This document shows, in pieces, positions 25,677-52,034 of a stretch of DNA of 64,000 bases. The position numbers and the translations under genes are program-made. Positions within the stretch are counted from its first letter, which is position 1, and each line of letters begins with the position of its first letter. The DNA lies in contig NZ_QTTQ01000009.1 in assembly GCF_003384935.1 (NCBI RefSeq), forward strand, positions 310,001-374,000, given 5' to 3'. Origin of the DNA: Lutibacter oceani. GTDB taxonomy: Bacteria > Bacteroidota > Bacteroidia > Flavobacteriales > Flavobacteriaceae. The notes beneath the pieces are model-generated. The model was not told the origin of the DNA. It made no database searches and saw only the letters and a program-made list of their open reading frames with translations.

Positions 25677-25703
25677 AGAAAGGAAAACGGACGCACCGTT
25701 TTC
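25677..25703 (-). terminator. Putative attenuator terminator of the arg-pro operon
   Basis: The minus strand has GAAAACGG-TGCGT-CCGTTTTC (25703-25683), an 8-bp stem, followed by CTTTCT. The U-rich tract is partly in the stem, so the terminator is weaker-looking than those of ilv and phe. It lies between the Arg-rich leader ORF and the first structural gene. TTTTC directly after the leader stop (25712-25708) can pair with GAAAA of the 5' arm as an alternative. Confidence 0.6.
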
Positions 25704-25712
25704 AATAGAAAA

Positions 25713-25778
25713 TTAAGCCCGCAAGGGGCGACGTGCGAAGCGACGTATAATTGATATGAATATATTTTCAATTTTCAT
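25713..25778 (-). CDS. Arginine operon leader peptide (21 codons, RRFARRPLR)
   Basis: A short ORF starts at ATG 25778-25776 and ends in TAA at 25715-25713. It encodes 21 residues: MKIENIFISII, then RRFARRPLRA. Five of the last ten residues are arginine, all in CGN codons (CGT CGC, CGT CGC, CGG). It ends 77 bases before the arg-pro operon's first gene and is followed at once by a hairpin. This is the layout of a ribosome-mediated attenuator, in which ribosomes stall on Arg codons when charged tRNA-Arg is scarce. The alternative is a chance reading of a GC-rich intergenic repeat. I favour the leader because the same design heads two neighbouring operons. Confidence 0.65.
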   Translation of the reverse strand: MKIENIFISIIRRFARRPLRA

Positions 25779-25783
25779 TGGTA

Positions 25784-25810
25784 CAATATTACATAAAAAA
25801 ATTAATACAA
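25784..25810 (-). promoter_or_regulatory. Weak promoter candidate for arg leader
   Basis: The minus strand has TTG (25810-25808), a 16-base spacer and TAATATTG (25791-25784), one mismatch from TAnnTTTG. The -7 ends only five bases before the leader ATG, so the transcript would be nearly leaderless. Tentative. Confidence 0.3.
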
Positions 25811-25815
25811 TGTTT

Positions 25816-25839
25816 AAATTGTTTAATAATTAACAATTT
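25816..25839. promoter_or_regulatory. Palindrome upstream of arg leader (possible operator)
   Basis: AAATTGTT-8 nt-AACAATTT is a perfect 8-bp inverted repeat just upstream of the putative arg promoter and 57 bases before the ilvA end. It might be a repressor site or a weak hairpin after ilvA. No protein can be named. The rest of the 25636-25895 gap holds the leader system described separately. Confidence 0.35.
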
Positions 25840-25895
25840 AAAGCTTTGCACCTTTTATATTAACAATCTAATTTAAAATTCATTAAACATTTATT

Positions 25896-27164
25896 CTATA
25901 TTAAGAATTGAAACAACTCTGGCTTTTCATTTAGGTACTCACCTAAAAACCCTTTTTGTTTCATTCTAATTACTAAAGGTTCAAAATCTTCTTTTGAATC
26001 CAGTTCAATTCCAACAACCGCCGGACCTTTATCTCTGTTATGTTTTTTGGTGTATTCAAAATAAGCAATATCATCATTTGGACCTAAAACATCCACTACA
26101 AATTCTTTTAATGCACCTGCCCTTTGTGGAAATTTGATAATAAAATAATGCTTTAAACCTTCATAAAATAGTGCGCGTTCTTTCATTTCTTCCATTCGGG
26201 TAATATCGTTATTACCGCCACTTACCACACAAACTACTGTTTTTCCTTTTATGTGATCTTTATAATTTTCTAAAGCTGCAATTGATAATGCTCCTGCAGG
26301 TTCAGCAACCAAAGCATTTTCGTTGTACACTTTTAAAATAGTGGAACAAATTAAGCCTTCATCTATTAAAACAACACTGTGCAAAAGTTCTTTACAAAAC
26401 TGAAAAGTAATATCGCCCATTCTTTTTACAGCTGCACCATCAACAAATTTTTCTATATGATCTAAAGTTGTATTTTCTCCTTTCTCTAAAGAATTTGTTA
26501 ATGAAGGTGCTCCTTTTGGTTCAACTCCAATAATTTTAGTAGCAGGGCTTAATGTTTTAAAAACGCTTCCAACTCCTGAAGCTAAACCTCCACCTCCAAC
26601 TGGTAAAAACAAATAATCTATTGGATCTGAAATATCTTTCAAAATTTCTAAACCAACTGTTCCTTGTCCGGCAATAACATCTAAATCATCAAAAGGATGT
26701 ACAAAAGTACTTTTGTTTGCATTACAAAATTCGTTGGCAGCTTCCTGACTGTCATCAAAACTATCTCCATACAATTTAATTTCAATAAACTCCCCACCAA
26801 ACATTCTAACCTGATCAATTTTTTGATGTGGAGTAGTAACGGGCATAAAAATAGTTCCGTAAACTTTTAAACTTTTACAAGCAAAAGCTACTCCTTGTGC
26901 GTGATTTCCAGCACTGGCGCACACAATACCATTTTGTAATTGCGATTCAGTTAATCCTTGAATCTTATTGTAAGCACCTCTAATTTTATAAGAACGTACA
27001 ACCTGTAAATCTTCCCTTTTGAAATAAACATTCGCCTGGTACCGTTCAGAGAAATTTTTCATAAAAACCAAAGGAGTTGCCTGAACAACTCCTTTGATAT
27101 TTTGTTGCGCTTTGTAAATTTTCTCTAGTGGAATACTATTTTGAGAAGCTACATCCATTCGCAT
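25896..27164 (-). CDS. ilvA: Threonine deaminase IlvA
   Basis: A 422-residue PLP enzyme converting threonine to 2-oxobutanoate, the entry to isoleucine. The PLP lysine is K60 in VVRSYKIRGAYNK, and SAGNHAQG and VGGGGLASG bind the cofactor phosphate. It has a single C-terminal ACT-like regulatory domain (about 335-422), so it is the shorter biosynthetic form rather than the two-domain E. coli form; isoleucine inhibition is likely. It is the last gene of the ilv operon, 20 bases after ilvC. Confidence 0.95.
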   Translation of the reverse strand: MRMDVASQNSIPLEKIYKAQQNIKGVVQATPLVFMKNFSERYQANVYFKREDLQVVRSYKIRGAYNKIQGLTESQLQNGIVCASAGNHAQGVAFACKSLKVYGTIFMPVTTPHQKIDQVRMFGGEFIEIKLYGDSFDDSQEAANEFCNANKSTFVHPFDDLDVIAGQGTVGLEILKDISDPIDYLFLPVGGGGLASGVGSVFKTLSPATKIIGVEPKGAPSLTNSLEKGENTTLDHIEKFVDGAAVKRMGDITFQFCKELLHSVVLIDEGLICSTILKVYNENALVAEPAGALSIAALENYKDHIKGKTVVCVVSGGNNDITRMEEMKERALFYEGLKHYFIIKFPQRAGALKEFVVDVLGPNDDIAYFEYTKKHNRDKGPAVVGIELDSKEDFEPLVIRMKQKGFLGEYLNEKPELFQFLI

Positions 27165-27184
27165 TATTTAATAATTTCTATTTT

Positions 27185-28660
27185 TTATGATACAATTTTT
27201 GTCATTGCAGTCATCGATGCTCTTAAATACTCACCTATATCTTCTACTGGATGATTTCTAATTGAAGCGTTTACCTCAATTAATTCCTTATTATCTACAC
27301 CATTAGAACCATCGTTAAAAGGTCTTCCAACAAAATTACTTGGTGTTTTTTTAACATAGTCTGCAATTAATGGCTTACATGCATGGTCAAATAAATAACA
27401 ACCATATTCTGCAGTATCTGAAATTACACTGTTCATTTCGAATAATTTTTTACGTGCAATGGTATTAGCAATTAATGGCGTTTCGTGTAAAGATTCGTAA
27501 TAAGCAGATTCATCAATAATTCCAGATTCTGTCATCGCTTCAAAAGCTAATTCAACACCTGCTTTAACCATTGCTACCATTAAAACTCCATTATCAAAAT
27601 ATTCCTGTTCAGAAATTTTCACATCGGCAGCTGGTGTTTTTTCAAACGCAGTTTCTCCTGTTGCAGCTCTCCAAGTTAATAAGTTTACATCATCATTTGC
27701 CCAATCTTCCATCATTGTTTTTGAGAAATGACCACTCATAATATCATCCATATGTTTTTGGAATAATGGACGCATAATATCTTTTAATTCTTCTGAAGCA
27801 TTAAATGCTGCAATTTTTGCTGGATTAGATAAACGATCCATCATATTAGTTATACCACCGTGCTTTAAAGCTTCAGTAATTGTTTCCCAACCATATTGAA
27901 TTAATTTTGAGGCATATCCTTTATCAACTCCCTCATCAACCATTTTATCGAAACATAAAATAGAACCTGTTTGCAATAAACCACATAAAATAGTTTGTTC
28001 ACCCATTAAATCTGATTTTACCTCAGCAACAAAAGAAGATTCTAAAACTCCTGCCGTATGACCACCAGTACCAACTGCATATGCTTTTGCGTAATCCCAA
28101 CCTTTTCCTTCAGGATCATTTTCAGGGTGTACTGCTATTAAAGTTGGTACCCCAAATCCTCTCTTAAATTCTTCACGAACTTCAGATCCTGGTGATTTAG
28201 GTGCTACCATAATTACAGTAATATCTTTACGAATTTGCATTCCTTCTTCAACAATATTAAAACCGTGTGAATATGAAAGTGTTGCTCCTTTTTTCATTAA
28301 AGGCATTACAGCAGAAACTACTGCGGTATGCTGTTTATCTGGTGTTAAATTGATTAACAAATCTGCAGAAGGAATCATTTCTTCATAAGTTCCAACTTTA
28401 AATTTGTTTTCTGAAGCATTTAAAAACGATTGTCTTTTTTCTGCAATAGCTGCTGGTCTTAAAGTATAAGAAACGTCTAAACCAGAATCTCTCATATTTA
28501 AACCTTGATTTAAACCTTGAGCTCCACAACCAACAATTACTATTTTTTTTCCTTTTAAAGCTGCTACACCTTCACTGAATTCAGAAGAATCCATAAATCT
28601 ACATTTTCCTAATTGACTTAATTTATCTCTTAATGAAAGTGTATTAAAATAATTTGCCAT
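27185..28660 (-). CDS. ilvC: Ketol-acid reductoisomerase IlvC (class II)
   Basis: A 491-residue enzyme of the long, class II type (as in E. coli), with a duplicated C-terminal helical domain. [19 protein letters not shown] (about 36-54) is the NADPH-binding motif. It isomerises and reduces acetolactate or acetohydroxybutyrate in valine and isoleucine synthesis. It follows ilvN by 19 bases. Nothing odd. Confidence 0.97.
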
Positions 28661-28679
28661 TTTTTTATTCTTTTAATCT

Positions 28680-29201
28680 TTAGTTAATTTCTGCTAATAA
28701 TTCTGATATTGCCATTTTAGGTCGTGTAATTGCTATACGCCCTGAACGTACAAATTGCAATAATTTATACGGTTTTAATTTTTCGTACATATTATCTATA
28801 TCGCCTTTTAAACCAGAAGCTTCAATAACAAAATAACGCTCAGTTATTGAAATAATATGTGCTCTTCTAAATTTTAATTTTTCCTGAATGTGTTCATCGT
28901 ATAAATATTCAGTTGAAATTTTAAACAATGCTGTTTCATGATAAATTATTTCATCTTCAGTATGGTAAAAAGCACCTATCACTTCAATTTGCTTTTCTAA
29001 CTGACCAACAACTTTTCTGGCCTGTATTTCAGAAATATTTACAACAAATGTAAATCTATGAACGTTTTCAATTTCTGATTTTGAAACTGTCATACTTTCA
29101 ATATTGATATGACGTTTTAAAAATATTGCCGAAAGGCGATTTAATATTCCTACGTTATTTTCAGTATATACCGAAAATGTAAAATTTTTAATTTCTTCCA
29201 T
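28680..29201 (-). CDS. ilvN: Acetolactate synthase regulatory subunit IlvN
   Basis: A 173-residue protein with an N-terminal ACT domain (FSVYTENNVGILNRLSAIFL) followed by the C-terminal ALS-regulatory domain. It binds valine and activates and feedback-controls the catalytic subunit IlvB, which is encoded one base upstream. The length agrees with other small subunits. It sits between ilvB and ilvC. Confidence 0.95.
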   Translation of the reverse strand: MEEIKNFTFSVYTENNVGILNRLSAIFLKRHINIESMTVSKSEIENVHRFTFVVNISEIQARKVVGQLEKQIEVIGAFYHTEDEIIYHETALFKISTEYLYDEHIQEKLKFRRAHIISITERYFVIEASGLKGDIDNMYEKLKPYKLLQFVRSGRIAITRPKMAISELLAEIN

Positions 29202-29202
29202 C

Positions 29203-30936
29203 TTAACTTAATCTTATATCTGAAACACTTGCACCTGTTGGTATCATTGGGAAAACATTATCTTCTTGCTCAATTACAACTTCTAAAAAATAAGCATCTT
29301 TTGAGGCTATCATTGTTTTAATGGCATCCGCTAAATCTTCACGTTTTGAAACTCTTTGTGCCTCAATATCATATGCCTCAGCAAGTTTTACAAAATCTGG
29401 GCTTACCATTTCTGTAGAAGCGTATCGTTTATCAAAAAATAACTCTTGCCATTGGCGCACCATTCCTAAATAACTATTGTTTAAAACTATAATCTTTACA
29501 GCAGCCTTTGTTTGTAGAATGGTTCCCAATTCATTACAAGTCATTTGATAACCTCCATCTCCAATAATAGCAATTACCTCACGCTCAGGAGCTCCCATTT
29601 TTGCACCTATTGAAGCCGGTAATGCAAATCCCATAGTTCCTAAACCTCCTGAAGTTACACTACTTCTAGTTTTTATAAAATCGGCATATCTACACGCAAA
29701 CATTTGGTGTTGACCAACATCTGAAACAATTACAGCATCGCCATTTGTTTCTTTGTTAATGCCTCCCAAAACTTCACCCATAGTTAAACCAGGTTTTGTA
29801 GGATTTAATTGATTATAAATTACTTCATCTTTTTCAATTTGAAGTAATTTATCAAATTCTTTCATCCATACATTATGATCTGCTTTATTAACATATTGCA
29901 TAATTTCAGCTAAAGTTTCTTTAACAGTTCCTAAAATAGCAATATCTGTTTTCACATTTTTATCAACTTCTGCAGGATCAATTTCAAAATGAATTACTTT
30001 GGCTTGTTTTGCATACGTTTGCAGATTTCCTGTAACTCTATCATCAAAACGCATTCCTATTGCAATTAAAACATCACAAGAATTAGTCAATACGTTTGGC
30101 GCATAATTTCCGTGCATACCAACCATACCAACATTTAACGGATGGCTGGTTTCTAGCGCTGAAAGCCCTAAAACTGTTGATGCTGATGGGATATCTGTTT
30201 TTTCTATAAAGTTTTTAAATTCTTGTTCAGCTCCACCAATAATAACACCTTGTCCCCAAACAATAAATGGTTTTTTTGCTGAATTAATAAGTGTGGCTGC
30301 TTCTTTTATTTTTTCAATATCAAATTTAGGAGTAGCTTTATAACTTCTTATTTTTTCACATTTTTTATATGAAAAATCTACTTCTCCAAATTGAGCATCC
30401 TTAGTAATATCTATTAACACTGGTCCTGGACGACCCGATTTTGCAATGTAAAAAGCTTTGGCAAAAACCTCTGGTATTTCACTTGCTTTTGTAATTTGAT
30501 AATTCCATTTTGTTACTGGTGTTGAAATACCTATAATATCAGTTTCCTGAAAAGCATCAGAACCCAACAAATGAGAAGCTACCTGACCAGTAACACATAC
30601 TAAAGGTGTAGAATCTATTTGCGCATCTGCAATACCAGTTACTAAATTTGTTGCTCCAGGTCCTGAAGTTGCAAAAACAATTCCTGGTTTCCCGGTTACT
30701 CGTGCAAAACCTTGCGCCGCGTGTATTGCTCCTTGCTCGTGACGTGTTAAAACATGATGAAATTCCTCACGATATTTATAAATCTCATCATAAACTGGCA
30801 TAATGGCTCCACCAGGATATCCATAAGCCAAATCAGCACCTTCTTCTAATAAACACTTTATTACTGCCTCTGCACCAGTCATTTTAACTGTTGCTGATGT
30901 ATTTTGTTCTTTAACCTCTTTATTCAATGTCTCCAT
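29203..30936 (-). CDS. ilvB: Acetolactate synthase catalytic subunit IlvB
   Basis: A 577-residue thiamine-diphosphate enzyme. GYPGGAIMPVYDEIY and RHEQGAIHAAQGFARVTG carry the N-terminal catalytic glutamate region, and GDGGYQMTCNELGTI in the C-terminal domain is the ThDP/Mg motif GDG-x(24-27)-N, ending in NNSYLGMVRQWQ. It makes acetolactate and acetohydroxybutyrate. It follows ilvD by four bases and pairs with ilvN. Confidence 0.97.
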   Translation of the reverse strand: METLNKEVKEQNTSATVKMTGAEAVIKCLLEEGADLAYGYPGGAIMPVYDEIYKYREEFHHVLTRHEQGAIHAAQGFARVTGKPGIVFATSGPGATNLVTGIADAQIDSTPLVCVTGQVASHLLGSDAFQETDIIGISTPVTKWNYQITKASEIPEVFAKAFYIAKSGRPGPVLIDITKDAQFGEVDFSYKKCEKIRSYKATPKFDIEKIKEAATLINSAKKPFIVWGQGVIIGGAEQEFKNFIEKTDIPSASTVLGLSALETSHPLNVGMVGMHGNYAPNVLTNSCDVLIAIGMRFDDRVTGNLQTYAKQAKVIHFEIDPAEVDKNVKTDIAILGTVKETLAEIMQYVNKADHNVWMKEFDKLLQIEKDEVIYNQLNPTKPGLTMGEVLGGINKETNGDAVIVSDVGQHQMFACRYADFIKTRSSVTSGGLGTMGFALPASIGAKMGAPEREVIAIIGDGGYQMTCNELGTILQTKAAVKIIVLNNSYLGMVRQWQELFFDKRYASTEMVSPDFVKLAEAYDIEAQRVSKREDLADAIKTMIASKDAYFLEVVIEQEDNVFPMIPTGASVSDIRLS

Positions 30937-30940
30937 AGGT

Positions 30941-32623
30941 TTAAAATTTATCCGTTACACAACCTTCTGAAGCAGAAGAAACGGTTTTTGCATATTTATA
31001 TAATATTCCTTTTGTATGTTTTAAAGCTGGTGCTTTCCATTGTGTTTTTCTTGCTGCCAATTCAGCATCCGAAATTTTCATATTAATAGTTTTATTAACT
31101 GCATCAATTACAATAATATCACCATCTTTTACCAATCCAATTCCTCCTCCACTCTGAGCTTCAGGTGTAATATGACCCACCACAAATCCATGAGTTCCAC
31201 CAGAAAAACGACCATCAGTTATTAACGCTACAGATTTTCCTAAACCTGCCCCCATAATCATTGAAGTTGGCTTTAACATTTCTGGCATTCCCGGACCTCC
31301 TTTTGGCCCAACATACCTAATTACAACTACATCACCTCTTGAAACTTTCCCTGCACCAATTCCATCATTTGCTTCTTGTTCACTATTAAACACAACTGCT
31401 TTCCCTTCAAATAAGTTACCTTCTTTACCACTGATTTTGGCAACTGCACCTTCAGACGCTAAATTCCCGTATAAAATTTGAAGATTCCCAGAAGATTTTA
31501 ATGCTTTTTCTGTTGGATGAATTACCTGTTGGTCATCTTCAAAACTTAATGGTTTAACATCAGCTAAATTTTCAGCCAGTGTTTTCCCTGTAATTGTCAT
31601 ACAATCGCCATGTAAATATCCTTTTTCCAATAAATATTTCATAACTGCTGGTGTTCCACCAACACCATGAACATCTTCCATTAAATATTCACCACTTGGT
31701 TTTAAATCTGCAATTAACGGAGTTCTATCACTTACGCGTTGAAAATCTTCCAAAGTAAATTCGATACCAGCTGCATGTGCAATTGCTAAATAATGTAAAA
31801 CTGCATTCGTTGAACCTCCTAAAGCATTGACCAATGCTACAGCATTTTCTAGCGATTTTTTTGTAATAATATCTAATGGTTTTAAATCTAACTCTAACAA
31901 GTTTTTAATAGCGGCGGCAATGCGCTCACTCTCAGGTTCTTTATTAGGGTTTTCCGCTGGAATAGATGAATTATACGGCAACGCAAATCCTAATGCTTCA
32001 ATAGATGAGGCCATTGTATTTGCTGTATACATACCTCCACAAGCACCTGCGCCTGGAATGGCATTTTTAATAATTTCTTTGTATTCTTCTTCTGTAATAT
32101 CTCCAGCAATTTTTTGACCTAATGCTTCAAAAGCCGATACTATATTTAGTTTTCTTCCTTTGTATTTTCCTGAAGCAATAGTTCCTCCATATACCATTAA
32201 TGACGGACGATTTAAACGTAACATTGCCATTATTGCACCAGGCATATTTTTATCACAACCTACAACAGTTACTAAACCATCATAACTTTGCGCATTCATA
32301 ACTATTTCAATAGAATCAGCAATAACATCACGAGAAGGTAATGAATAATTCATTCCTAAAGTTCCCATTGAAATTCCATCACTTACTCCAATAGTATTAA
32401 ATTTTAAGCCAACAAGTTCATTTTTATTTACTTCTTCCTGAATTAAACCTGCCAAACCATTTAAGTGCATATTACAAGGATTACCATCGTATCCAGTACT
32501 TGCAATACCAATTTGTGGCTTTTTCATATCATCATCAGACAAACCGACTCCATACAACATTGCTTGAGCAGCTGGCTGCGTTGGATCTTGTGTTACTCTT
32601 TTACTATGTTTATTTAATTGCAT
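30941..32623 (-). CDS. ilvD: Dihydroxy-acid dehydratase IlvD
   Basis: A 560-residue iron-sulfur dehydratase acting on the dihydroxy acids from IlvC. Cluster cysteines are visible in [20 protein letters not shown] and [12 protein letters not shown]. It is the first structural gene of the ilvDBNCA operon. A leader of about 475 bases with a leader peptide and two terminators lies upstream. Length is standard. Confidence 0.97.
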
Positions 32624-32701
32624 TTATTTTAACGCTTTTTAAATTATTTTAAATTATTATTAAAACAACTTAATTTTTATTAATTATTTTTCAATGAAAA
32701 G

Positions 32702-32709
32702 CAAATTTA
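32702..32709 (-). promoter_or_regulatory. Possible internal promoter before ilvD (-7 only)
   Basis: The minus strand reads TAAATTTG, matching TAnnTTTG, about 79 bases before the ilvD ATG. No -33 TTG is seen at the expected distance. In this AT-rich gap a chance match is quite possible. If real, it would bypass both leader terminators. Confidence 0.25.
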
Positions 32710-32833
32710 AATCAGTCATTCTTTTTTAACATTTTTTAATTGGATTTTTTACAACATCCACGCTTATTTAAATTTACATATGTCGCTAATTTTAAGGTAT
32801 TTAACCTATTTTTTTTTACAATGATTATTCAAT

Positions 32834-32864
32834 AAAAAAACCTATATTATTTTTGTAATACAGG
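32834..32864 (-). terminator. Second terminator in ilv leader
   Basis: The minus strand has CCTGTATTA-CAAAAA-TAATATAGG (9-bp stem with one G-U) followed by seven Ts (32840-32834). It lies downstream of the first attenuator and 211 bases before ilvD. No amino-acid-rich ORF lies between the two terminators. A further inverted pair (ACAATCTT 32951-32958 and AAGATTGT 32884-32891) folds the segment between them. Confidence 0.65.
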
Positions 32865-32971
32865 CTATAAATTTTTCAATTACAAGATTGTATCAATTCA
32901 TGAAATTAACAATAATGACTTCAATTAAAATAACTAAATTTAAATTTTTCACAATCTTATATATTTATATT

Positions 32972-33001
32972 AAAAAAGCCTTCCTAATAATTTAGGAAGG
33001 C
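32972..33001 (-). terminator. ilv attenuator terminator
   Basis: The minus strand has GCCTTCCTAA-ATTA-TTAGGAAGGC, a perfect 10-bp stem, followed by six Ts. It starts 33 bases after the stop of the ilv leader peptide. TTAGGA overlapping that stop codon (33037-33032) can pair with TCCTAA of the 5' arm (32997-32992), a mutually exclusive antiterminator. Confidence 0.82.
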
Positions 33002-33033
33002 CATATAATTTTATATCAATTACAATAACTGTC

Positions 33034-33099
33034 CTAACGCTCTGATAAAATAATTACAGAGACATTTACAGAAATGATATTGACAATTAGGTTTTTCAT
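33034..33099 (-). CDS. ilv operon leader peptide (21 codons, Ile/Val/Leu-rich)
   Basis: A short ORF runs from ATG 33099-33097 to TAG 33036-33034. It reads MKNLIVNIISV, then NVSVIILSER. Eleven of 21 residues are Leu, Ile or Val (5 Ile, 4 Val, 2 Leu). It precedes ilvD by about 410 bases and is followed 33 bases later by a strong terminator. A CTCTG/CAGAG stem (33061-33057 with 33044-33040) lies in its last codons. This is the standard layout for attenuation by ribosome stalling at branched-chain codons. The reading frame and codons are seen directly; the mechanism is inferred from the classical ilv and leu leaders. Confidence 0.85.
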   Translation of the reverse strand: MKNLIVNIISVNVSVIILSER

Positions 33100-33109
33100 A
33101 CTTGAGGAA

Positions 33110-33117
33110 CAAATATG
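33110..33117 (-). promoter_or_regulatory. Weak -7 candidate for ilv leader
   Basis: The minus strand reads CATATTTG, one mismatch from TAnnTTTG, 10 bases before the leader ATG. No -33 at proper spacing. The promoter could instead lie further upstream in the gap or within the end of the 33156-34700 gene. Confidence 0.25.
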
Positions 33118-33155
33118 TTACTTTTTTTTTAATTAAAAAATAAAACCAATATTTT

Positions 33156-34700: not shown

Positions 34701-34811
34701 TGTAACTAATTTATTTTTATCTTGTTGATATTTAATTGCTTACAAAATATAATTTCCTTTTGAATATAGTAAACACCATCTTTTACTCTTTATATAGAAA
34801 ACGTATAAGTA

Positions 34812-34819: not shown

Positions 34820-34849
34820 GTATTCAAAAGTGATAAAAAAAAATCAGAA

Positions 34850-42103: not shown

Positions 42104-42115
42104 ATTTTATGACTT

Positions 42116-43003: not shown

Positions 43004-43034
43004 AATGTATTATTTCAATTTAAATTTCAAAGTG

Positions 43035-43068
43035 CAAAAATAGTAATATTTTACTATATTCGTGTCAA
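43035..43068 (-). promoter_or_regulatory. fabD promoter
   Basis: The minus strand has TTGAC (43068-43064) and TATTTTTG (43042-43035), separated by 21 bases from the end of TTGAC. The -7 is 31 bases before the fabD ATG. Confidence 0.6.
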
Positions 43069-43078
43069 TTAACTACTA

Positions 43079-43774: not shown

Positions 43775-43913
43775 AGAATTTGGCATATTTTTTGAATTAT
43801 ATTAATTAAGGTAACAATATGTGTATTTAGTTGATATATAAATGTAAGTGAAACATAAAGTAAATGGTTAAGCCATCACTAAAAAGAAACATTTACATAT
43901 TTAAAATTAGTTT

Positions 43914-44270: not shown

Positions 44271-44282
44271 ATAGATTTTTAT

Positions 44283-45080: not shown

Positions 45081-45108
45081 TTAAAGTTTTTTATTAAATT
45101 TAACTTAC

Positions 45109-45140
45109 CAAATATACTCAATATAATATGCCATTTCAAA
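45109..45140 (-). promoter_or_regulatory. DUF2797 gene promoter
   Basis: The minus strand has TTTG (45140-45137), a 20-base spacer and TATATTTG (45116-45109), 28 bases before the ATG. The -33 lies inside the first codons of the divergent GH3 gene. Confidence 0.62.
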
Positions 45141-46660
45141 TAGTGAATTCAATAATTTCTTGGTTTTTAAAAAAACGAAAACACCAAATGGAACTATTTT
45201 TAAAATATCCCATTGATGTTCAGCAGGAATTATTATTTAAATTACTTAATAAGGCAAAATTTACTGAAATTGGAATACAATATAAATTTTCTGAAATTAG
45301 AACTTATGAAGATTTCAAAAAAAATGTTCCCATACAGCAGTATGAATCCATTGAACCTTTAATTGAACGCACCAGAAAAGGTGAACAAAATTTATTTTGG
45401 CCAACTCCTATTAAGTGGTTCGCAAAATCCAGCGGTACAACCAATGCAAAAAGCAAATTTATTCCTGTAAGTTATGAAGCACTGGAAAACTGTCATTTTA
45501 AAGCAGGAAAAGATATGCTTTGCCTGTATTTTAACAACAATGAAGAAGCGCAACTTTTTACTGGAAAAGGGTTACGCCTTGGTGGAAGCAGCGCAGTATA
45601 TGAAGATAATCATTCTTATTTTGGTGATTTATCTGCTATAATTATTGAAAACATGCCGTTTTGGGCGGATTTTAGTAGTGCTCCAAAACAAGAAACTGCT
45701 TTAATGGGTGAATGGGAAGCCAAAATGAAAGCAATAGTTGAAGAAACCATAAACGAAGATATAACAAGCTTGGTTGGAGTACCTTCATGGATGTTGGTAC
45801 TCTTAAATAAAGTATTAGAAAAAACTGGAAAAGATAATATTTTAGAAGTTTGGCCAAACCTTGAGGTCTATTTTCATGGAGGTGTAAATTTTAATCCGTA
45901 TCGCGAACAATTCAAAAAATTAATCCCTAAAAAGAGTTTTAAATATTACGAAACGTATAATGCTTCTGAAGGATTTTTTGCCATTCAAGATTTAAACAAT
46001 TCTTTTGATTTATTACTAATGTTAGACTATGGAATATTTTATGAATTTATACCAATGGAGCATTTTAAGGGGGAAAATTCTGAAGCAATTCCACTAGCTC
46101 AAGTAGTACTTGATAAAAATTATGCGCTGGTAATTACCACAAATGGAGGTTTATGGCGTTATTTAATTGGGGATACAATTAAATTTACTTCTTTAGATCC
46201 ATACAGGATTAGAATTACAGGCAGAACAAAACACTTTATAAATGTTTTTGGCGAAGAATTAATTATTGAAAATACCGAAGAAGCTTTAAAACAAGCCTGT
46301 TTAAAAACCAATGCTGAAATTTCTGAATACACAGTTGCACCTATTTTTATGAATGGAAATAAAAGTGGAGGACATGAATGGGTTATAGAATTTAAAATTC
46401 ATCCCGAAAACATTAACTACTTCACAGAATTGTTAGATAATTCTTTAAAAGCAATAAATTCTGATTATGAGGCAAAACGTTATAAAAACTTAACATTAAA
46501 AAGTCCTAAAATTAATGTAGTTAGAAAAGGTTTATTTTATGATTGGCTAAAACATAATGGTAAATTGGGTGGTCAGCATAAAATTCCTAGACTTTCCAAT
46601 TCCAGAAATCATTTAGAAGAAATATTAAAACTAAATGCTGTGCACTCCGATTTGGTTTAA
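45128..46660 (+). CDS. GH3 family adenylate-forming enzyme
   Basis: A 510-residue protein of the GH3 family, named for plant auxin-responsive acyl-acid amido synthetases of the ANL adenylating superfamily. KSSGTTNAKSKFIPVS (about 100-115) is the P-loop-like ATP motif, and YETYNASEGFFAIQ and YLIGDTIKFTSLDPYRI are further ANL motifs. Bacterial members have no firmly assigned substrate that I know of. It is monocistronic and ends in a terminator hairpin shared with the next gene. Confidence 0.9.
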   Translation: MPFQIVNSIISWFLKKRKHQMELFLKYPIDVQQELLFKLLNKAKFTEIGIQYKFSEIRTYEDFKKNVPIQQYESIEPLIERTRKGEQNLFWPTPIKWFAKSSGTTNAKSKFIPVSYEALENCHFKAGKDMLCLYFNNNEEAQLFTGKGLRLGGSSAVYEDNHSYFGDLSAIIIENMPFWADFSSAPKQETALMGEWEAKMKAIVEETINEDITSLVGVPSWMLVLLNKVLEKTGKDNILEVWPNLEVYFHGGVNFNPYREQFKKLIPKKSFKYYETYNASEGFFAIQDLNNSFDLLLMLDYGIFYEFIPMEHFKGENSEAIPLAQVVLDKNYALVITTNGGLWRYLIGDTIKFTSLDPYRIRITGRTKHFINVFGEELIIENTEEALKQACLKTNAEISEYTVAPIFMNGNKSGGHEWVIEFKIHPENINYFTELLDNSLKAINSDYEAKRYKNLTLKSPKINVVRKGLFYDWLKHNGKLGGQHKIPRLSNSRNHLEEILKLNAVHSDLV

Positions 46661-46689
46661 TATAAGAATTGAATAATTCTTATATTTTT
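46659..46689 (+). terminator. Hairpin between convergent GH3 and prenyl synthase genes
   Basis: AATATAAGAATT and AATTCTTATATT form a perfect 12-bp stem with a GAAT loop, followed by a short T run on the plus strand. The stem includes the ends of both genes' stop codons. Confidence 0.7.
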
Positions 46690-47657
46690 CGTTCAATAAC
46701 ATAATTTACCATAATAAGTAAAGAGTCTTTATAAGGAGAATCCGGATATGTATTTAATATAGCTAAAGCCTTTGTTTGGTATTCTTTCATTTTAGCAATA
46801 GTATATTCTATGCCTCCATGTTCTTTTACAAAAGCAATTACTTCCTTTACCCTTTTCTTATTTTTATTATGATTTTTAACAGAATTAATTAACCATTTTT
46901 TTTCTTTTTCCGAACAATTATTAATAGTATAAATAAGCGGTAAGGTCATTTTTTGTTCTTTAATATCTATACCTGTAGGCTTTCCAATTTTAGCATCGGT
47001 GTAATCAAATAAATCATCTTTAATTTGAAATGCAATACCAATTAACTCGCCAAAAAGTCTCATTTTTTCAATTTCTTCAGCATCACTTATTACAGATGCT
47101 GCGCCAATACCACAACAAGCAGCAATTAAAGTCGCTGTTTTCTGACGAATAATTTCAAAATAAACATCTTCTGTAATATCTAATTTACGCGCTTTTTCAA
47201 TTTGCAGTAATTCACCTTCGCTCATTTCACGCACTGCGACAGATATTAATTTTAGAATATCAAAATCATCATTATCAATGGATAATAGCAATCCTTTTGA
47301 AAGTAAAAAATCTCCAACTAAAACTGCAATTTTATTTTTCCATAAAGCATTTATCGAGAAAAAACCACGTCTTCTATTACTATCATCTACAACATCATCG
47401 TGTACTAAAGTTGCAGTATGAATTAATTCAATTATAGAAGCTCCTCGGTAGGTTCGTTCTTCAAACCTACCATTTGAAACCATTTTTGCCACCAAAAACA
47501 CAAACATTGGTCGCATTTGTTTCCCTTTCCTACGCACAATATAATGCGTAATTCTATTTAATAATGGAACTTTCGTGACCATGGCCTCTCTGAATTTACT
47601 TTCAAAGAGCTCCATTTCTTCAAGTATGGGTTGTTTTATTAGTTCAACTGGTTTCAT
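46680..47657 (-). CDS. Polyprenyl diphosphate synthase
   Basis: A 325-residue trans-prenyltransferase. The first aspartate-rich motif is DDVVD (87-91) in ATLVHDDVVDDSNRRRG, and the second is FQIKDDLFDYTD near residue 210. It builds long-chain isoprenoid diphosphates; in Bacteroidota this is most likely the menaquinone side chain. Product length cannot be read by eye. A -7 element lies just upstream and the gene stands alone. Confidence 0.9.
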   Translation of the reverse strand: MKPVELIKQPILEEMELFESKFREAMVTKVPLLNRITHYIVRRKGKQMRPMFVFLVAKMVSNGRFEERTYRGASIIELIHTATLVHDDVVDDSNRRRGFFSINALWKNKIAVLVGDFLLSKGLLLSIDNDDFDILKLISVAVREMSEGELLQIEKARKLDITEDVYFEIIRQKTATLIAACCGIGAASVISDAEEIEKMRLFGELIGIAFQIKDDLFDYTDAKIGKPTGIDIKEQKMTLPLIYTINNCSEKEKKWLINSVKNHNKNKKRVKEVIAFVKEHGGIEYTIAKMKEYQTKALAILNTYPDSPYKDSLLIMVNYVIERKI

Positions 47658-47664
47658 TAATAAA

Positions 47665-47672
47665 CAAAAATA
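47665..47672 (-). promoter_or_regulatory. -7 element of prenyl synthase gene
   Basis: The minus strand reads TATTTTTG, an exact consensus match eight bases before the ATG. The short distance suggests an almost leaderless mRNA; no -33 TTG is seen. Confidence 0.4.
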
Positions 47673-47762
47673 GTAGTTTATTTTAAATGGGATTACTTTT
47701 ATTTTAGATTTCTTATTCTAAAAAAAACCTGAAATTAACAATGATTAAATATACATATAAGA

Positions 47763-47888
47763 AAGCTGTCTAAAAAGTTAAACTTACATCAACCTGAACT
47801 TTATTCAGGTTCTCATCATTACTGGTAACAATATGGTGAGCTTCTGAAATAAATTCAGAATGACGACTTCTAACCTTTTAGACAGCCT
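47763..47888. repeat. Large cruciform repeat, likely terminator of the aromatic operon
   Basis: The outer arms AAGCTGTCTAAAAAGTTA (47763-47780) and 47871-47888 pair imperfectly around two smaller hairpins, AACCTGAA-5 nt-TTCAGGTT (47791-47811) and TTCTGAA-5 nt-TTCAGAA (47842-47860). It follows the DAHP synthase stop by about 20 bases. The second inner hairpin recurs at 17956-17979, and GAAAGCTGTC recurs upstream of the repeat array near 60.68 kb, so it belongs to a dispersed family. Confidence 0.8.
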
Positions 47889-47908
47889 CTTATTTTTTAA
47901 AACCTAAA

Positions 47909-48985
47909 TTACTTTACGTTATGTTGAATATTTATGGATTCTACGTGGATAGCTTTAAAAACCTCCTCTACAAACTCTCTACTTAATCCTTTGCTTTCTC
48001 CTACAGCAATCATTGAAGATAAAATATCAGACCATCTTCCACTTTGTAAAATAGCTACATTTTCCTGGTGTTTTAATTTGCCAATATTTTCAGCAACGGT
48101 CATTCTATCACTTAAAATATCAATAATATTACCATCAATTAAATCCAATTCTTTACGGTATAAATTTAATTTACTTTGGAAACTCTCCTTAGAACTACTT
48201 TTTTGGCGAATTTTTAAATCCTGTGTAATTTTATGTAATTGAGCTGGAGTAATTTGTTGTGCAGCATCACTCCAAGCATTGTCTGGGTCTATATGAGTTT
48301 CAATCATAAATCCATCAAAATTTAAATCCAATGCAGTTTGAGAAACATCTAAAATAGTATCTCTACGACCGCAAATATGAGATGGATCTAAAATTAAAGG
48401 TAAATCAGGAAATTCTTTTTTCAATTCAATAGCAATATGCCATTTTGGTTTGTTTCTGTAATGCCCTGTATTATATGCTGAAAAACCTCTATGAATAACT
48501 CCTAATTGTGAAATTCCATTCGCTTGAAAACGCTCAACACCACCTAACCATAAAGCTAAATCTGGGTTTACAGGGTTTTTAACTAATACTGGTTTATCTA
48601 CTCCTTTCAAAGCATCTGCAATTTCTTGCACAGCAAAAGGGTTTACAGTAGTTCTAGCACCAATCCATAATATATCTATATCTGCTTTTAATGCTAACTC
48701 AACGTGATTTGCATTACCAACTTCAGTAGTTATTTTCATTCCGGTTTCTTCACGAACTCTTTGTAACCAAGGTAGTCCAATTCCACCAACACCTTCAAAA
48801 CCTCCCGGTCTGGTTCTTGGCTTCCAAATACCAGCTCTAAATACATTTGTATCTGTATCTTTTAATAAATGCGCTGTTTTTAATACTTGCTCTTCTGTTT
48901 CAGCACTACAAGGTCCTGCAATTACAATAGGATGAGATAAACCCATACTATCTAACCATTTTCTGTTTTCTTTTGTAATTTCCAT
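47909..48985 (-). CDS. Bifunctional DAHP synthase-chorismate mutase
   Basis: A 358-residue fusion. Residues 1-260 are a DAHP synthase of the shorter (type I-beta/KDOPS-like) group, with IAGPCSAETEEQV, RAGIWKPRTRPGGFEG and LDPSHICGRRD. About residues 268-358 form an AroQ-type chorismate mutase (LNLYRKELDLIDGNIIDIL). Such C-terminal fusions are known in Bacteroidota such as Porphyromonas, where the mutase domain transmits feedback by prephenate. The enzyme therefore covers both the first shikimate step and the chorismate branch. It is the last gene of the pheA operon. Confidence 0.93.
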   Translation of the reverse strand: MEITKENRKWLDSMGLSHPIVIAGPCSAETEEQVLKTAHLLKDTDTNVFRAGIWKPRTRPGGFEGVGGIGLPWLQRVREETGMKITTEVGNANHVELALKADIDILWIGARTTVNPFAVQEIADALKGVDKPVLVKNPVNPDLALWLGGVERFQANGISQLGVIHRGFSAYNTGHYRNKPKWHIAIELKKEFPDLPLILDPSHICGRRDTILDVSQTALDLNFDGFMIETHIDPDNAWSDAAQQITPAQLHKITQDLKIRQKSSSKESFQSKLNLYRKELDLIDGNIIDILSDRMTVAENIGKLKHQENVAILQSGRWSDILSSMIAVGESKGLSREFVEEVFKAIHVESINIQHNVK

Positions 48986-49003
48986 CTTCGTTTAATTTCT
49001 TAT

Positions 49004-49861
49004 TTAGTTGCTCTGCTTAATTCCGTTTAATATATTTTTTATATAATTTGTACCATGCATCGTTTCATTTAAACCATTTGCATCGTTTTGCTCAATCATT
49101 TCTTTAAACTCATTTAAGTTTTTAATATATTCATTTAAAGATTTTATAATATTTTCTTTGTTTTCCAAAAATATTGGAGTCCAGGTATTTGCTGAACTTT
49201 TAGCCAAACGCACTGTTGAAGCAAAACCAGTACTTGCCATATCAAATATTGCTTGTTCATTTTTTTCAATCTCTAAAACTGTTTTCCCTAACATAAAAGA
49301 ACTTACGTGAGACAAATGAGATACATAAGCAATATGCCTGTCATGTTCTTCAGGATGCATCATTTTAATGCGCATGTTTAGTTTTTTAAATAAACTAATT
49401 GCTTTATCTAAAATTTTCCAATCTGTTTTATCCGCTTCACAAATAATATTTACTTTATCATCAAATAAATTTAAAATTGCTGCTTCCGGACCTGAAAATT
49501 CAGTTCCTGCCAATGGATGCGCGGCAACAAAATTTTTGCGTTTTGGATGATTTACTATTTCCTTACAAATTTCATTTTTTACTGAACCTACATCAAAAAC
49601 CAATGTATCTTCAGAAACACAATCTAAAATTTCCTTTGCTAATTTTGGTACTATATTTACAGGTACTGCAATAATAACAACTGAAGCATCTGTTATTTCA
49701 TTAAAATCAATTTCAGCATCGATTACACCTAGCGCTAAAGCTTTTTTAATATGCTCAGCGTTTTGATCGATACCAAATACTTTATAATTTCCTCTTTTCT
49801 TTAAATCCAATGCTAAAGAACCACCTATTAAACCTAAACCGATAACAACTAATTTTTCCAT
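49004..49861 (-). CDS. tyrA: Prephenate dehydrogenase TyrA
   Basis: A 285-residue NAD-dependent dehydrogenase for tyrosine synthesis. VIGLGLIGGSLALDLKKRG is the Rossmann motif, and HPLAGTEFSGPEAA binds prephenate. It has no chorismate mutase or ACT domain, so feedback by tyrosine through a fused domain is absent. It is encoded between the aminotransferase (1 base) and the DAHP synthase fusion (18 bases). Confidence 0.94.
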   Translation of the reverse strand: MEKLVVIGLGLIGGSLALDLKKRGNYKVFGIDQNAEHIKKALALGVIDAEIDFNEITDASVVIIAVPVNIVPKLAKEILDCVSEDTLVFDVGSVKNEICKEIVNHPKRKNFVAAHPLAGTEFSGPEAAILNLFDDKVNIICEADKTDWKILDKAISLFKKLNMRIKMMHPEEHDRHIAYVSHLSHVSSFMLGKTVLEIEKNEQAIFDMASTGFASTVRLAKSSANTWTPIFLENKENIIKSLNEYIKNLNEFKEMIEQNDANGLNETMHGTNYIKNILNGIKQSN

Positions 49862-49862
49862 G

Positions 49863-51020
49863 TTATATTTTTACGGTGGTTAATCTATTTAAAACTTCAT
49901 TTAGCACCTCTGCATCAACACATAAAGATGCTCTTATGTAGCCTTCTCCATTAGAACCAAAAATAGTTCCCGGAGTAATAAACACGTTTTTATTGTATAA
50001 TAATTCATCTGTAATAGCTTCAGATTTTATTCCTTTTGGTAGTTTTGCCCAAACAAATAAACCGCCAATAGCTTGATTATAAGTACAATTTAAAGCATCA
50101 AATATTTCCCAAACAATTGCTCTTCTTTTCGTGTAAATTTCATTTTGAGATTTAAACCACTCATTTGATAATTTAAAAGCTTCAACTGCCCCTTTTTGAA
50201 TTCCAAAAAACATTCCAGAATCCATATTGCTTTTTACCTGCAAAATTGTTTTAATAATTTCGGCATTTCCAACTACCATTCCTACACGCCAACCAGCCAT
50301 ATTAAAAGTTTTACTTAAAGAATTTAGCTCAATTGCTACTTCTTTTGCTCCTTCAACATCTAAAATACTTATTGGTTTTTCATTTAAAATAAAACTATAA
50401 GGATTGTCATTTACAATTAAAATATTGTGCTTTTTAGCAAATGCTATTAATTGTTTAAAATCTTCTTTTGAAGCCACAGCACCAGTTGGCATATGTGGAT
50501 AATTTACCCACATAATTTTCACTTTTGATAAATCCTCTTTTTCTAATTCTTCAAAATTAGGCAACCAGTTTGTTGTTTCATTTAAATTATAAAAAATAGC
50601 CTCTGCTTGTACTAAATTGGTTACAGATGCGTAGGTTGGATACCCTGGATTTGGAATGAGTACCTTATCTCCTTTATTTAAAAATGCCATTGAAATATGC
50701 ATAATACCTTCTTTTGACCCCATTAAAGGAAGAATTTCTGTAGTTGCATTTAAATTAACATTATACTTTTCTTTATAAAAAGTGGCAATACCTTCACGTA
50801 ATTCCGGAATTCCTTGGTAGCTTTGGTATTGATGTGCATTGGGCAATTCCACAGCATTTTGAATAGCTTCAATAACACTTGCCGGAGGGTTTAAATCAGG
50901 GCTTCCAATTGCAATATTTATAATTGGTTTGCCTTCATTTCTTAAAGCTGCTACTTCTCTTAGTTTTTTAGAAAAGTAGTATTCTTTTACATTATTTAAT
51001 CTGTCAGCTCTCTGTATCAT
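49863..51020 (-). CDS. Class I aminotransferase of aromatic amino acid synthesis
   Basis: A 385-residue fold-type I PLP aminotransferase. The PLP lysine is in LNSLSKTFNMAGWRVG (about residues 228-243), and NDNPYSFI holds the Asn-x-x-Tyr cofactor pair. From its location in the operon it probably converts phenylpyruvate and hydroxyphenylpyruvate to Phe and Tyr, or prephenate to arogenate. A general aspartate aminotransferase cannot be excluded. It shares one base with pheA. Confidence 0.9.
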   Translation of the reverse strand: MIQRADRLNNVKEYYFSKKLREVAALRNEGKPIINIAIGSPDLNPPASVIEAIQNAVELPNAHQYQSYQGIPELREGIATFYKEKYNVNLNATTEILPLMGSKEGIMHISMAFLNKGDKVLIPNPGYPTYASVTNLVQAEAIFYNLNETTNWLPNFEELEKEDLSKVKIMWVNYPHMPTGAVASKEDFKQLIAFAKKHNILIVNDNPYSFILNEKPISILDVEGAKEVAIELNSLSKTFNMAGWRVGMVVGNAEIIKTILQVKSNMDSGMFFGIQKGAVEAFKLSNEWFKSQNEIYTKRRAIVWEIFDALNCTYNQAIGGLFVWAKLPKGIKSEAITDELLYNKNVFITPGTIFGSNGEGYIRASLCVDAEVLNEVLNRLTTVKI

Positions 51021-51838
51021 TATCTTTTACCTTTGTTGTATTCTCCCAATACCTTTAATGTTTCAACTTTTGTTTTTATTTCATTTATAGCATTAAAATA
51101 ATCGGCATAGCTATTAAAAATAAAATCAGCAAAAAAAGCATATTTCCAAGGTGTATCAATTACTGGCATTGATTGAATTTTAGATAAATTTAAATCGTGT
51201 TTTGCCAAAATTGAAAGTACTTCTGCCAAACTTCCAGTATCATTACTGGTAATAAATTTTATGGATGCTTTATTGGATGAAACACTGCTTTTATCTTTAT
51301 TGTTATTTAAAATAAAAAACCGTGTTGCATTTTCCTTTATTGTTTGAATTTCAGGAGCAAGAATTTTTAACGTGTATGTTTTTGCTGCCAATTTACTGGC
51401 AATTGCTCCAACTCCTTTTAAATTGTTTTCCTGAATACGTTTAGCTACAGAAGCGGTATCTTTATCTTCAATTAATTTAATATGTGGATAATCTTTAAAA
51501 AATTTATGACATTGTAATAATGCCATCGGATGCGAATACACCTCTTTAATGTCTTCAATATTTTGTCCTTCCAACGCCATTAAATTATGATGAATTGGCA
51601 GGTGATACTCTCCACAAATTGTTAATTGAAAATCATCTATAAGTGCATAATTAGGTAAAATTGCTCCTGCTATGGAATTTTCAATTGCCATAATAAGAAC
51701 ATCTGCCTTTTTTTCTTGTAAAAGCACTGGCATTTCAGAAAAAGATAAACATTCTAATAACTCTATGTTTTTTCCAAAATATTGTTCAGCCACTATGTGG
51801 TGAAAAGATCCTTTTATACCTTGAATTGCTACTCTCAT
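51020..51838 (-). CDS. pheA: Prephenate dehydratase PheA (monofunctional)
   Basis: A 272-residue prephenate dehydratase with an N-terminal catalytic part (GIKGSFHHIVAEQYF, ENSIAGAI, ATRFFIL with the TRF motif at about 163-165) and a C-terminal ACT domain (about 190-268, TSNDTGSLAEVLSILAKHDL) for phenylalanine inhibition. It has no chorismate mutase domain; that activity is on the DAHP synthase. It is the first structural gene after the FYFYFYF leader peptide. Confidence 0.94.
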   Translation of the reverse strand: MRVAIQGIKGSFHHIVAEQYFGKNIELLECLSFSEMPVLLQEKKADVLIMAIENSIAGAILPNYALIDDFQLTICGEYHLPIHHNLMALEGQNIEDIKEVYSHPMALLQCHKFFKDYPHIKLIEDKDTASVAKRIQENNLKGVGAIASKLAAKTYTLKILAPEIQTIKENATRFFILNNNKDKSSVSSNKASIKFITSNDTGSLAEVLSILAKHDLNLSKIQSMPVIDTPWKYAFFADFIFNSYADYFNAINEIKTKVETLKVLGEYNKGKR

Positions 51839-51854
51839 TATTTAATATTAATTC

Positions 51855-51882
51855 AAAAAAAAATCTCGAAATAATTTCGAGA
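51855..51882 (-). terminator. Attenuator terminator before pheA
   Basis: The minus strand has TCTCGAAA-TTA-TTTCGAGA, an 8-bp stem, followed by nine Ts (51863-51855), ending 17 bases before the pheA ATG. GAGGCT overlapping the leader stop (51924-51919) can pair with AGTCTC (51884-51879) at the base of the 5' arm, with one G-U. Confidence 0.85.
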
Positions 51883-51922
51883 CTCCATAATTTATATTTT
51901 GTTAATTAACACATACAAAGCC

Positions 51923-51985
51923 TCACCCTTTATTATTAAAATAAAAGTAAAAATAGAAGCTGTTCCAAGTGTTATTTGATATCAT
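51923..51985 (-). CDS. Phe/Tyr operon leader peptide (20 codons, FYFYFYF)
   Basis: A short ORF runs from ATG 51985-51983 to TGA 51925-51923. It encodes MISNNTWNS, then FYFYFYF, then NNKG: seven aromatic residues in a row, four Phe and three Tyr. A well-matched promoter lies 20 bases upstream and a terminator with nine Ts follows. The operon downstream makes exactly Phe and Tyr (pheA, aminotransferase, tyrA, DAHPS/CM). It is the counterpart of the enterobacterial pheA and pheST leaders, but alternates both amino acids, so shortage of either would stall the ribosome. Confidence 0.9.
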   Translation of the reverse strand: MISNNTWNSFYFYFYFNNKG

Positions 51986-52004
51986 AATTTCCTAAATATG
52001 AGGA

Positions 52005-52034
52005 CAAATCTATGCATTAATTTTAAAAAACCAA
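52005..52034 (-). promoter_or_regulatory. Promoter of the aromatic amino acid operon
   Basis: The minus strand has TTGG (52034-52031), an 18-base spacer and TAGATTTG (52012-52005), a full consensus promoter. The predicted transcript start near 51998 gives a short 5' end before the leader ATG. The remaining gap, 52035-52209, shows no gene. Confidence 0.8.

Follow-up and report, generated by a model that had tools for sequence, protein, structure and literature searches.

The leaders of the ilv and phe/tyr operons of Lutibacter oceani very probably control their genes by ribosome-mediated transcription attenuation, with two attenuators in series before ilv, and the nearby arg operon appears to carry an Arg-codon leader of another type, shared with thr. 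All three operons lie on the minus strand of the window, by which we mean the whole 64,000-nucleotide (nt) stretch analyzed (positions 310001-374000 of contig NZ_QTTQ01000009.1, in a genome of 3.38 Mb): arg-pro with 11 genes, ilv with five and an aromatic operon with four. An earlier reading of the letters without database searches (the sequence-only reading) had given these operon sizes, which fit the table of open reading frames (ORFs), and had proposed that the three leaders share one attenuator design, with 20-21 product-matched codons, a stop codon touching an antiterminator arm and a terminator within about 45 nt. The leader ORFs do have 21 (arg), 21 (ilv) and 20 (phe/tyr) codons matched to the product; the remainder of the design stands for phe/tyr and ilv but not for arg. 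The sequence itself shows the ORFs and their codon content, terminators, complementarity between the antiterminator arm and the terminator 5' arm (regions 2 and 3), conservation, the tandem layout at ilv, and the lack of an antiterminator signal at arg.

The phe/tyr leader is made up of the following elements.

51923..51985, minus strand: phe/tyr leader ORF, MISNNTWNSFYFYFYFNNKG and stop, 20 codons
51956..51964, minus strand: region 1, which contains AGCUUC (RNAfold)
51916..51925, minus strand: region 2 (antiterminator arm), GAGGCUUU, overlapping the stop codon UGA (RNAfold and shuffle test)
51861..51885, minus strand: intrinsic terminator (regions 3:4), folding free energy (dG) -10.4, followed by a T-run

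The region 2 arm lies over the stop codon TGA (GAGGCTTT), and GAGGCUUU, starting inside that stop, can pair with GGAGUCUC of the terminator 5' arm, so that antiterminator and terminator are predicted to be mutually exclusive; the terminator is strong and begins 37 nt past the leader stop. In the full-length RNAfold structure AGCUUC, at the start of the Phe/Tyr codons, pairs with region 2. When the RNA ends at the terminator 5' arm, RNAfold forms the 2:3 antiterminator, in phe/tyr and ilv alike. The interval of the sequence-only reading ends at position 52034, 49 nt upstream of the start of this leader. Another 20-codon ORF (52044-51982, MKKVGFLKLMHRFVLIFRKL and stop) was considered as the phe/tyr leader and set aside, being only weakly rich in Phe and far from the terminator; the ORF with FYFYFYF was preferred. 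The codon cluster TTCTATTTTTACTTTTATTTT (51958-51938) is near-identical in nucleotides across the Lutibacter loci compared, at synonymous sites too, which suggests a constraint on the RNA beyond that on the peptide.

In the mechanism we propose, a ribosome supplied with plentiful cognate charged transfer RNA would reach the leader stop codon and sit on region 2; region 3 would then pair with region 4, and transcription would end. Under shortage of the amino acid, the ribosome would stall on the codon cluster, region 2 would pair with region 3, and the terminator could not form, leaving the operon to be transcribed. Translation of the leader ORFs, stalling and read-through are what we infer from the layout.

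At ilv the same arrangement occurs twice, and the second attenuator (32952-32839) is absent from the sequence-only reading.

33034..33099, minus strand: ilv leader ORF 1, MKNLIVNIISVNVSVIILSER and stop, 21 codons
33029..33038, minus strand: ilv-1 region 2, UUAGGA over the stop codon UAG, a near copy of the terminator 3' arm (RNAfold)
32977..33002, minus strand: ilv-1 intrinsic terminator, dG -16.0
32893..32952, minus strand: ilv leader ORF 2, MKNLNLVILIEVIIVNFMN and stop, that is, M (from a GTG start) followed by KNLNLVILIEVIIVNFMN
32886..32896, minus strand: ilv-2 region 2, UUGAUACAA over the stop codon UGA (RNAfold)
32839..32866, minus strand: ilv-2 intrinsic terminator, dG -9.7, followed by a T-run
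32701..32713, minus strand: -7-like element GATTTAAATTTGC before ilvD, a candidate promoter 3' of both attenuators

The UUAGGA segment (TTAGGA over TAG in the DNA) can pair with UCCUAA of the first terminator, a strong one that begins 31 nt past the leader stop, and the 5' arm of the second terminator can pair with UGAUACA at the stop of ORF 2. The phe/tyr, ilv-1 and ilv-2 leaders thus each combine a cognate-codon ORF, an intrinsic terminator and an exclusive antiterminator (by predicted pairing), and from the sequence a second leader ORF and terminator stand in series at ilv. Polymerase would have to pass two gates, the first with a leader rich in Ile and Val, the second with one rich in Ile, Val and Leu. 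Within the genus, 17 of 30 ilv regions have the first attenuator alone, 11 have both and two have neither (the first is therefore present in 28/30); the two are L071, in which the upstream sequence differs, and L087, which is cut by a contig end. Among 20 ilvD stretches from other genera, the ilv leader was present in 10; L375 has both attenuator types, and L370, L372 and L378 have the second terminator type only.

We think it quite unlikely that the second ilv leader is a functionless duplicate in decay. Such decay would suit its apparent absence from 17 of the 28 genus genomes that have the first leader, and its GTG start in the window; against it, a second Ile/Leu/Val-rich leader with a terminator occurs in 11 of those 28 genomes, where 0.00 are expected when the downstream part is shuffled, and it recurs in another genus (L375), its terminator type being the sole one in the three stretches just named. 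The preferred reading of ilv remains two attenuators in series. Between the second terminator and ilvD (32822-32747, minus strand) we also observed a repeated [ACG]TTGTA[AG]A, with two copies in 17/30 genus regions, and a TAnn(n)TTTG motif lies within 150 nt upstream of ilvD in 27/30 regions (a count without a shuffle control). The repeats and the -7-like element may form a second promoter with an operator, which would bypass both ilv attenuators.

Conservation across relatives (the named close relatives of the window genome are mostly Lutibacter) carries most weight. Regions upstream of five operons (phe 49, ilv 30, his 31, trp 31, arg 30) were searched for a terminator preceded by an ORF of 8-32 codons, with a set minimum of cognate residues. 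Leaders with the cognate codons were found before phe (Phe/Tyr) in 47/49 regions, ilv (Ile/Leu/Val) in 26/30, his (His) in 26/31 and trp (Trp) in 26/31, and before arg in 3/30; off-target residues reached at most five regions for any of 15 residue classes in any operon. The scan found no leader in two phe regions (L132, L137), four ilv regions (L071, L079, L086, L087), five his regions (L094, L096, L098, L099, L100) and five trp regions (L143, L147, L155, L157, L159); some of these misses were recovered by a laxer scan or by eye, and L132 has a leader-like ORF farther upstream. The sequence-only reading had called for further operons and for conservation of its leaders, and both were found, outside arg, in these counts.

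The phe leader is present in 61/63 Bacteroidota loci versus 0/11 loci of other phyla (the 63 loci are another collection, drawn partly from the same genomes as the 49 regions), and its carriers include Polaribacter irgensii, Arenibacter aquaticus and six named Lutibacter species. In targeted stretches it was found in 9/11 genomes of other orders of the class, in 4/5 of the family and in 1/4 elsewhere; phylum-wide, it was found in one of the 30 loci listed, from 102 genomes with a match. The his leader, among 30 loci listed from 128 genomes with a match, was present in families f1 (4/4), f18 (3/3), f19 (2/2) and f28 (7/7) and absent from f22 (0/2), f31 (0/1), f33 (0/4) and f35 (0/7); with f28 it extends to another class of the phylum.

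The predicted pairing was evaluated against shuffled sequence. The complementarity of regions 2 and 3 gave a mean z of -2.78 for phe (45/47 below -1.64), -3.13 for his (40/45) and -2.27 for ilv (31/49), and the distance from region 2 to the stop codon is at most about 12-15 nt in 45/47, 42/45 and 46/49 units, respectively. When arms were swapped between sequences, the unit's own arm paired better than a foreign one in a fraction of 0.84 for his and 0.81 for ilv. A flavobacterial -7-like motif stands within 40 nt upstream of the leader ATG before phe in 34/46 regions (4.6 expected), his in 21/26 (1.3 expected) and trp in 20/26 (2.3 expected).

Codon statistics within one genome are no decisive guide. 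The scan covered 417.5 kb (the window, a 340-kb sample, and stretches picked at his, thr, met and trp genes) and yielded 109 ORF and terminator pairs versus 54, 47 and 59 in three shuffles; codon enrichment at p < 1e-3 was found for 11 pairs versus 0, 1 and 0 in these partly chosen stretches, with ilv outside the top 25. The 11 enriched pairs amount to 10 distinct ORFs, arg and phe included, with his and trp coming from picked stretches; several of the others resemble the ends of ordinary genes, by eye. The 109 pairs are what might recommend the view that the leaders are chance short ORFs before ordinary terminators, but the codon class fits the pathway across genera, the leaders are conserved, and regions 2 and 3 give a pairing signal, and we regard chance as so improbable that it is close to negligible. 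Conservation, not single-genome codon statistics, is the decisive evidence for the leaders.

The arg leader is built differently.

25713..25778, minus strand: arg leader ORF, MKIENIFISIIRRFARRPLRA and stop, 21 codons
25780..25791, minus strand: -7-like element TAATATTGTACC, directly 5' of the leader ATG
25717..25729, minus strand: hairpin 1, GCCCC-UUG-CGGGC, adjoining the stop codon
25683..25703, minus strand: hairpin 2, its UGNGU loop conserved; differs from a standard terminator

Its Arg-rich ORF with clustered cognate codons is conserved, and an element like the -7 element was found in 29/30 regions (with a loose pattern and without a shuffle control). Hairpin 1 is mostly GCCC/GGGC, with at least 4 base pairs (bp) in 44/46 sequences; the stop codon overlaps it in 10/46, all 10 outside the genus, and overlaps it or starts at most 4 nt after it in 37/46. 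Hairpin 2 starts 9 nt past the stop, folds with a closed five-base loop in 43/46, and is followed in the window by CTTTCTAA; its loop is UGCGU, UGAGU, UGUGU or UGCGC in 40/46, and both sides of its outer stem vary between genera, by eye. An automatic consensus fold of the element found just two pairs, owing to a bulge near hairpin 2 that puts the genera out of register; folds were therefore counted per sequence, and our model of the element, R1, is mostly a sequence model. At E <= 0.05, the sole match of R1 in the window genome is the arg leader, and 35/60 genomes are matched; of 38 matches in all, 30 reach E <= 2.7e-6 and belong without exception to the window's genus, and the other eight have E of 0.01-0.05. 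In other genera the element was found in 16/20 stretches, the four without it all belonging to family f5.

The 30 arg regions of the genus fall into two forms: 10 have a single ORF as in the window, and 20 have a separate 24-codon first ORF (for example, MKIYNSNITARIPSRLSGLRRRTR and stop) followed, about 100 nt on, mostly by a frame ending in RRPLRA or similar, with L040, L042 and L049 lacking a clear second frame. The single ORF resembles a fusion of the beginning of that first ORF with the end of the second frame. The two forms (L031-L060) differ by about 200 nt, and a conserved stretch rich in A+T lies in between.

We consider it very unlikely that arg has the same 1:2/2:3/3:4 attenuator as ilv and phe/tyr, with the hairpin GAAAACGG-TGCGT-CCGTTTTC as a working terminator with a poor U-tract. 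CTTTCT does follow this hairpin in the window, where it scored as weakly terminator-like (-5.1 to -6.0), as did hairpin 2 in 6/30 genus regions, the window included. A U-tract (at least five T in the 8 nt after the stem, with stem ends from RNAfold) was found, however, in 5/46 sequences overall and in 1/30 within the genus, with four T in the window; complementarity between the ORF end and the hairpin 5' arm equals that of shuffled sequence (mean z -0.15, 1/46 below -1.64); the ORF and terminator test was passed in 3/30 regions; and the UGNGU or UGCGC loop is conserved in 40/46, which a terminator does not need. A laxer scan found a weak terminator-like element in 11/30 genus regions, about half at hairpin 2 (window included) and about half at hairpin 1. 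Of the features of a classical attenuator, arg thus has the conserved cognate-codon ORF and lacks both the U-tract terminator and the antiterminator.

Before thrA, the window genome has a leader ORF ending in ATTTTITITL and a stop, and a Thr-rich leader is present in 18 of 21 thrA upstream stretches (20 relatives plus the window genome); no leader was found in the other three, which may not reach the gene start. A hairpin, typically ACCC-UUUA-GGGGU, stands at or just before the stop in 18/18 leaders, and terminator-like elements between the stop and thrA were found in 4/18, each time as this stop-codon hairpin with a U-rich tail. In the 12 nt after hairpin 1 there are on average 6.8 T for arg (n = 44) and 7.5 T for thr (n = 17), with about 4.2 expected, and 0.5 G in both. 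The arg and thr leaders therefore seem to share a type, with a G+C hairpin on or beside the leader stop, a U-rich and G-poor stretch after it, and no antiterminator signal. In thrA leaders of the genus (L201, L361 and others) we also observed a second stem, of the type ATATTCGTTTTCA...TGAAACAAGGAATAT, 3' of the stop-codon hairpin; by eye, both of its sides seem to vary, as in L349.

How such a leader would work is a guess, and most likely a stalled or finishing ribosome acts directly on the stop-codon hairpin. One version, which we favor tentatively and at rather less than even chance, is direct occlusion: the hairpin with its U-rich tail would pause polymerase or weakly terminate transcription. 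A ribosome stalled at the Arg or Thr codons just 5' of the hairpin would cover its 5' arm and let polymerase pass, and a ribosome that had finished and gone would let it form, with no antiterminator needed. A comparable leader without an antiterminator operates at pyrBI of Escherichia coli, where the leader ribosome acts directly on a downstream hairpin, and speFL of Salmonella and E. coli has an Arg-rich leader; neither is known to control arginine synthesis, and the likeness of the arg element to them is by description. The position of the stop relative to hairpin 1 (37/46 for arg, 18/18 for thr), the T-rich and G-poor 12 nt, and the fact that all four terminator-like calls among the thr leaders are the stop-codon hairpin agree with occlusion. 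On the other side, 4-5 bp of stem and an imperfect U-tract make a weak terminator, L355 (thr) has one T in the 12 nt, the stop is farther from hairpin 1 in 7/44 arg elements, and hairpin 2 is left without a role.

Rho-dependent termination is, in our estimate, rather less likely: release of the ribosome at the stop would bare the G-poor, pyrimidine-rich stretch to Rho, and a stall or the hairpins would prevent this. It would account for the scarcity of G after hairpin 1 and for terminator-like elements being rarer at arg (11/30 in the genus, 4/16 in other genera) and thr (4/18) than at phe (47/49), his (28/31), trp (29/31) and ilv (29/30); but for stalls upstream of the stretch the logic is reversed, since the stretch would then stay exposed, and the conserved UGNGU loop is unexplained. 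A wider proposal, which we hold with somewhat more hope than either version although still short of even odds, is that flavobacteria have a second, so far undescribed kind of leader at arg and thr, with codons running up to a G+C stop hairpin, no antiterminator or standard terminator, and, at arg, the UGNGU hairpin, and that it is the main arginine regulator. ArgR (PF01316) was found in 0/60 relatives, with 9/14 control genomes positive, a Bacteroides among them; arginine control in the order is therefore probably not based on ArgR.

Several results weigh against the reading of ilv and phe/tyr as attenuators and of arg and thr as a type of their own. Codon enrichment within the one genome is modest, and ilv stays outside the 25 best pairs. 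Region 2 of trp gives no signal from the 5' arm alone (z -0.13, 2/26); with the loop included it does (z -1.95, 18/26), but the loop was added post hoc. The arm swap was weak for phe (own arm better in 0.59); for trp, using the 5' arm only, it failed (0.35). At ilv, the -7-like motif occurs in 7/27 regions versus 3.3 expected, the leader is present in just 10 of the 20 ilvD stretches from other genera, and the second ORF begins with GTG in the window. The weakly terminator-like character of arg hairpin 2 in six of 30 regions belongs here too, as does the conjectural nature of the arg/thr mechanism.

The sequence-only reading had suggested a general, possibly lineage-wide system of codon-sensing leaders. 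Among the amino-acid genes examined in the window genome (arg, ilv, phe/tyr, his, trp, thr, metX-like and leuA), further leaders were found at his (MNFIQLHHHHLHTCNQAS and stop), trp (MKNNTLNMNWWWNSLIQ and stop) and thr, and the his and trp design reaches beyond the genus, so the suggestion is borne out; it is not universal, since the metX-like gene has an S-adenosylmethionine (SAM) riboswitch, no leader was found upstream of leuA in the window genome, and the ilv leader is present in half of the stretches from other genera. In two genomes of family f2 (L154, L156) two WWW leaders stand in series before trpE, each with a hairpin and T-run (the second terminators by eye). The SAM riboswitch (RF00162, 82.1 bits) lies at L202 3191-3293 on the minus strand of the same contig as the window, 5' of a frame of 1131 amino acids with a homoserine dehydrogenase domain, whose N-terminal part presumably resembles homoserine acetyltransferase. 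The window has no Rfam match at gathering scores, and none of its leaders matched the T-box or another Rfam 5' element; at E up to 0.5, with 16 loci submitted, no match fell on the arg, ilv, phe, his or thr loci.

The operons downstream of the leaders are as follows.

14751..25635, minus strand: arg-pro operon, 11 genes, the first a GNAT gene and the last argH (ORF table, NCBIfam)
25896..32623, minus strand: ilv operon, ilvD, ilvB, ilvN, ilvC and ilvA (ORF table; ilvD and ilvA above cut-off)
47909..51838, minus strand: aromatic operon, prephenate dehydratase, aminotransferase, tyrA-like, and 3-deoxy-D-arabino-heptulosonate-7-phosphate (DAHP) synthase/chorismate mutase (ORF table)

Ten of the 20 operon proteins were scanned against NCBIfam; five (argC, proA, argH, ilvD, ilvA) scored above the curated cut-off and the other five matched the expected families below it. 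Those below include argG and argD in the arg-pro operon, where the GNAT gene matches weakly, and the first and last genes of the aromatic operon. The names of the remaining arg-pro genes, of ilvB, ilvN and ilvC, and of the two middle aromatic genes (aminotransferase, tyrA-like) are ones that we assume.

The trp, his, phe and ilv operons of E. coli and Salmonella have ribosome-mediated attenuators. The Lutibacter leaders resemble these in their short cognate-codon ORF, a region 2 near the stop, an exclusive antiterminator and terminator, and a biosynthetic operon following; they differ in occurring in another phylum, in the -7-type promoter motif close 5' of the leader, and in the tandem ilv gates. 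A 2010 paper, in the portion relevant here, describes leader-peptide systems as known from Proteobacteria and Actinobacteria and adds Firmicutes (PMC2965389). For Bacteroidetes, part of another 2010 report describes RF01692 (Bacteroid-trp), a Trp leader peptide RNA (PMC2864571), which as described there covers trp only, unlike the Lutibacter set; it matches the trp leader of the window genome with 43.5 bits (E 0.048), under its gathering score of 49. The section of a 2021 study on Flavobacterium psychrophilum that concerns these leaders reports strong clues for leader-peptide attenuation before amino-acid operons, with the 5' elements before pheA and hisG also found in other Flavobacteriaceae; that section gives no case at arg, thr or ilv and none in tandem (PMC9723704). 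A passage on Bacteroides thetaiotaomicron describes short ORFs in long 5' untranslated regions, reminiscent of leader peptides, its example preceding a hypothetical protein, not an amino-acid operon (PMC7366714). The general set of codon-sensing leaders in the phylum is thus largely known already, and what merits further work is the second ilv gate and the arg/thr type.

The nearest relative of the tandem ilv gates is the Salmonella mgtCBR leader, in which two leader ORFs in one 5' leader act on transcription; the pertinent part of its description calls it a singular example responding to different signals, ATP (adenosine triphosphate) and proline, in a transport operon (PMC3641672), whereas the two ilv leaders, each followed by a terminator of its own, would read a single amino-acid family. 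Our searches of open-access literature turned up no arg or thr leaders of this type and no tandem attenuators for one amino-acid family; a 2010 comparative survey of attenuation by Lopatovskaya et al., cited in PMC4833913, may cover Bacteroidetes.

In this class of Bacteroidota, amino-acid synthesis appears to be controlled frequently by codon-reading attenuation. The tandem gates at ilv, with one amino-acid family read twice, would offer a natural test of a steeper response versus the separate sensing of amino acids. The arg/thr type, if confirmed, would represent a leader mechanism that works without an antiterminator, and it may take the place of the repressor that was not found in the order.

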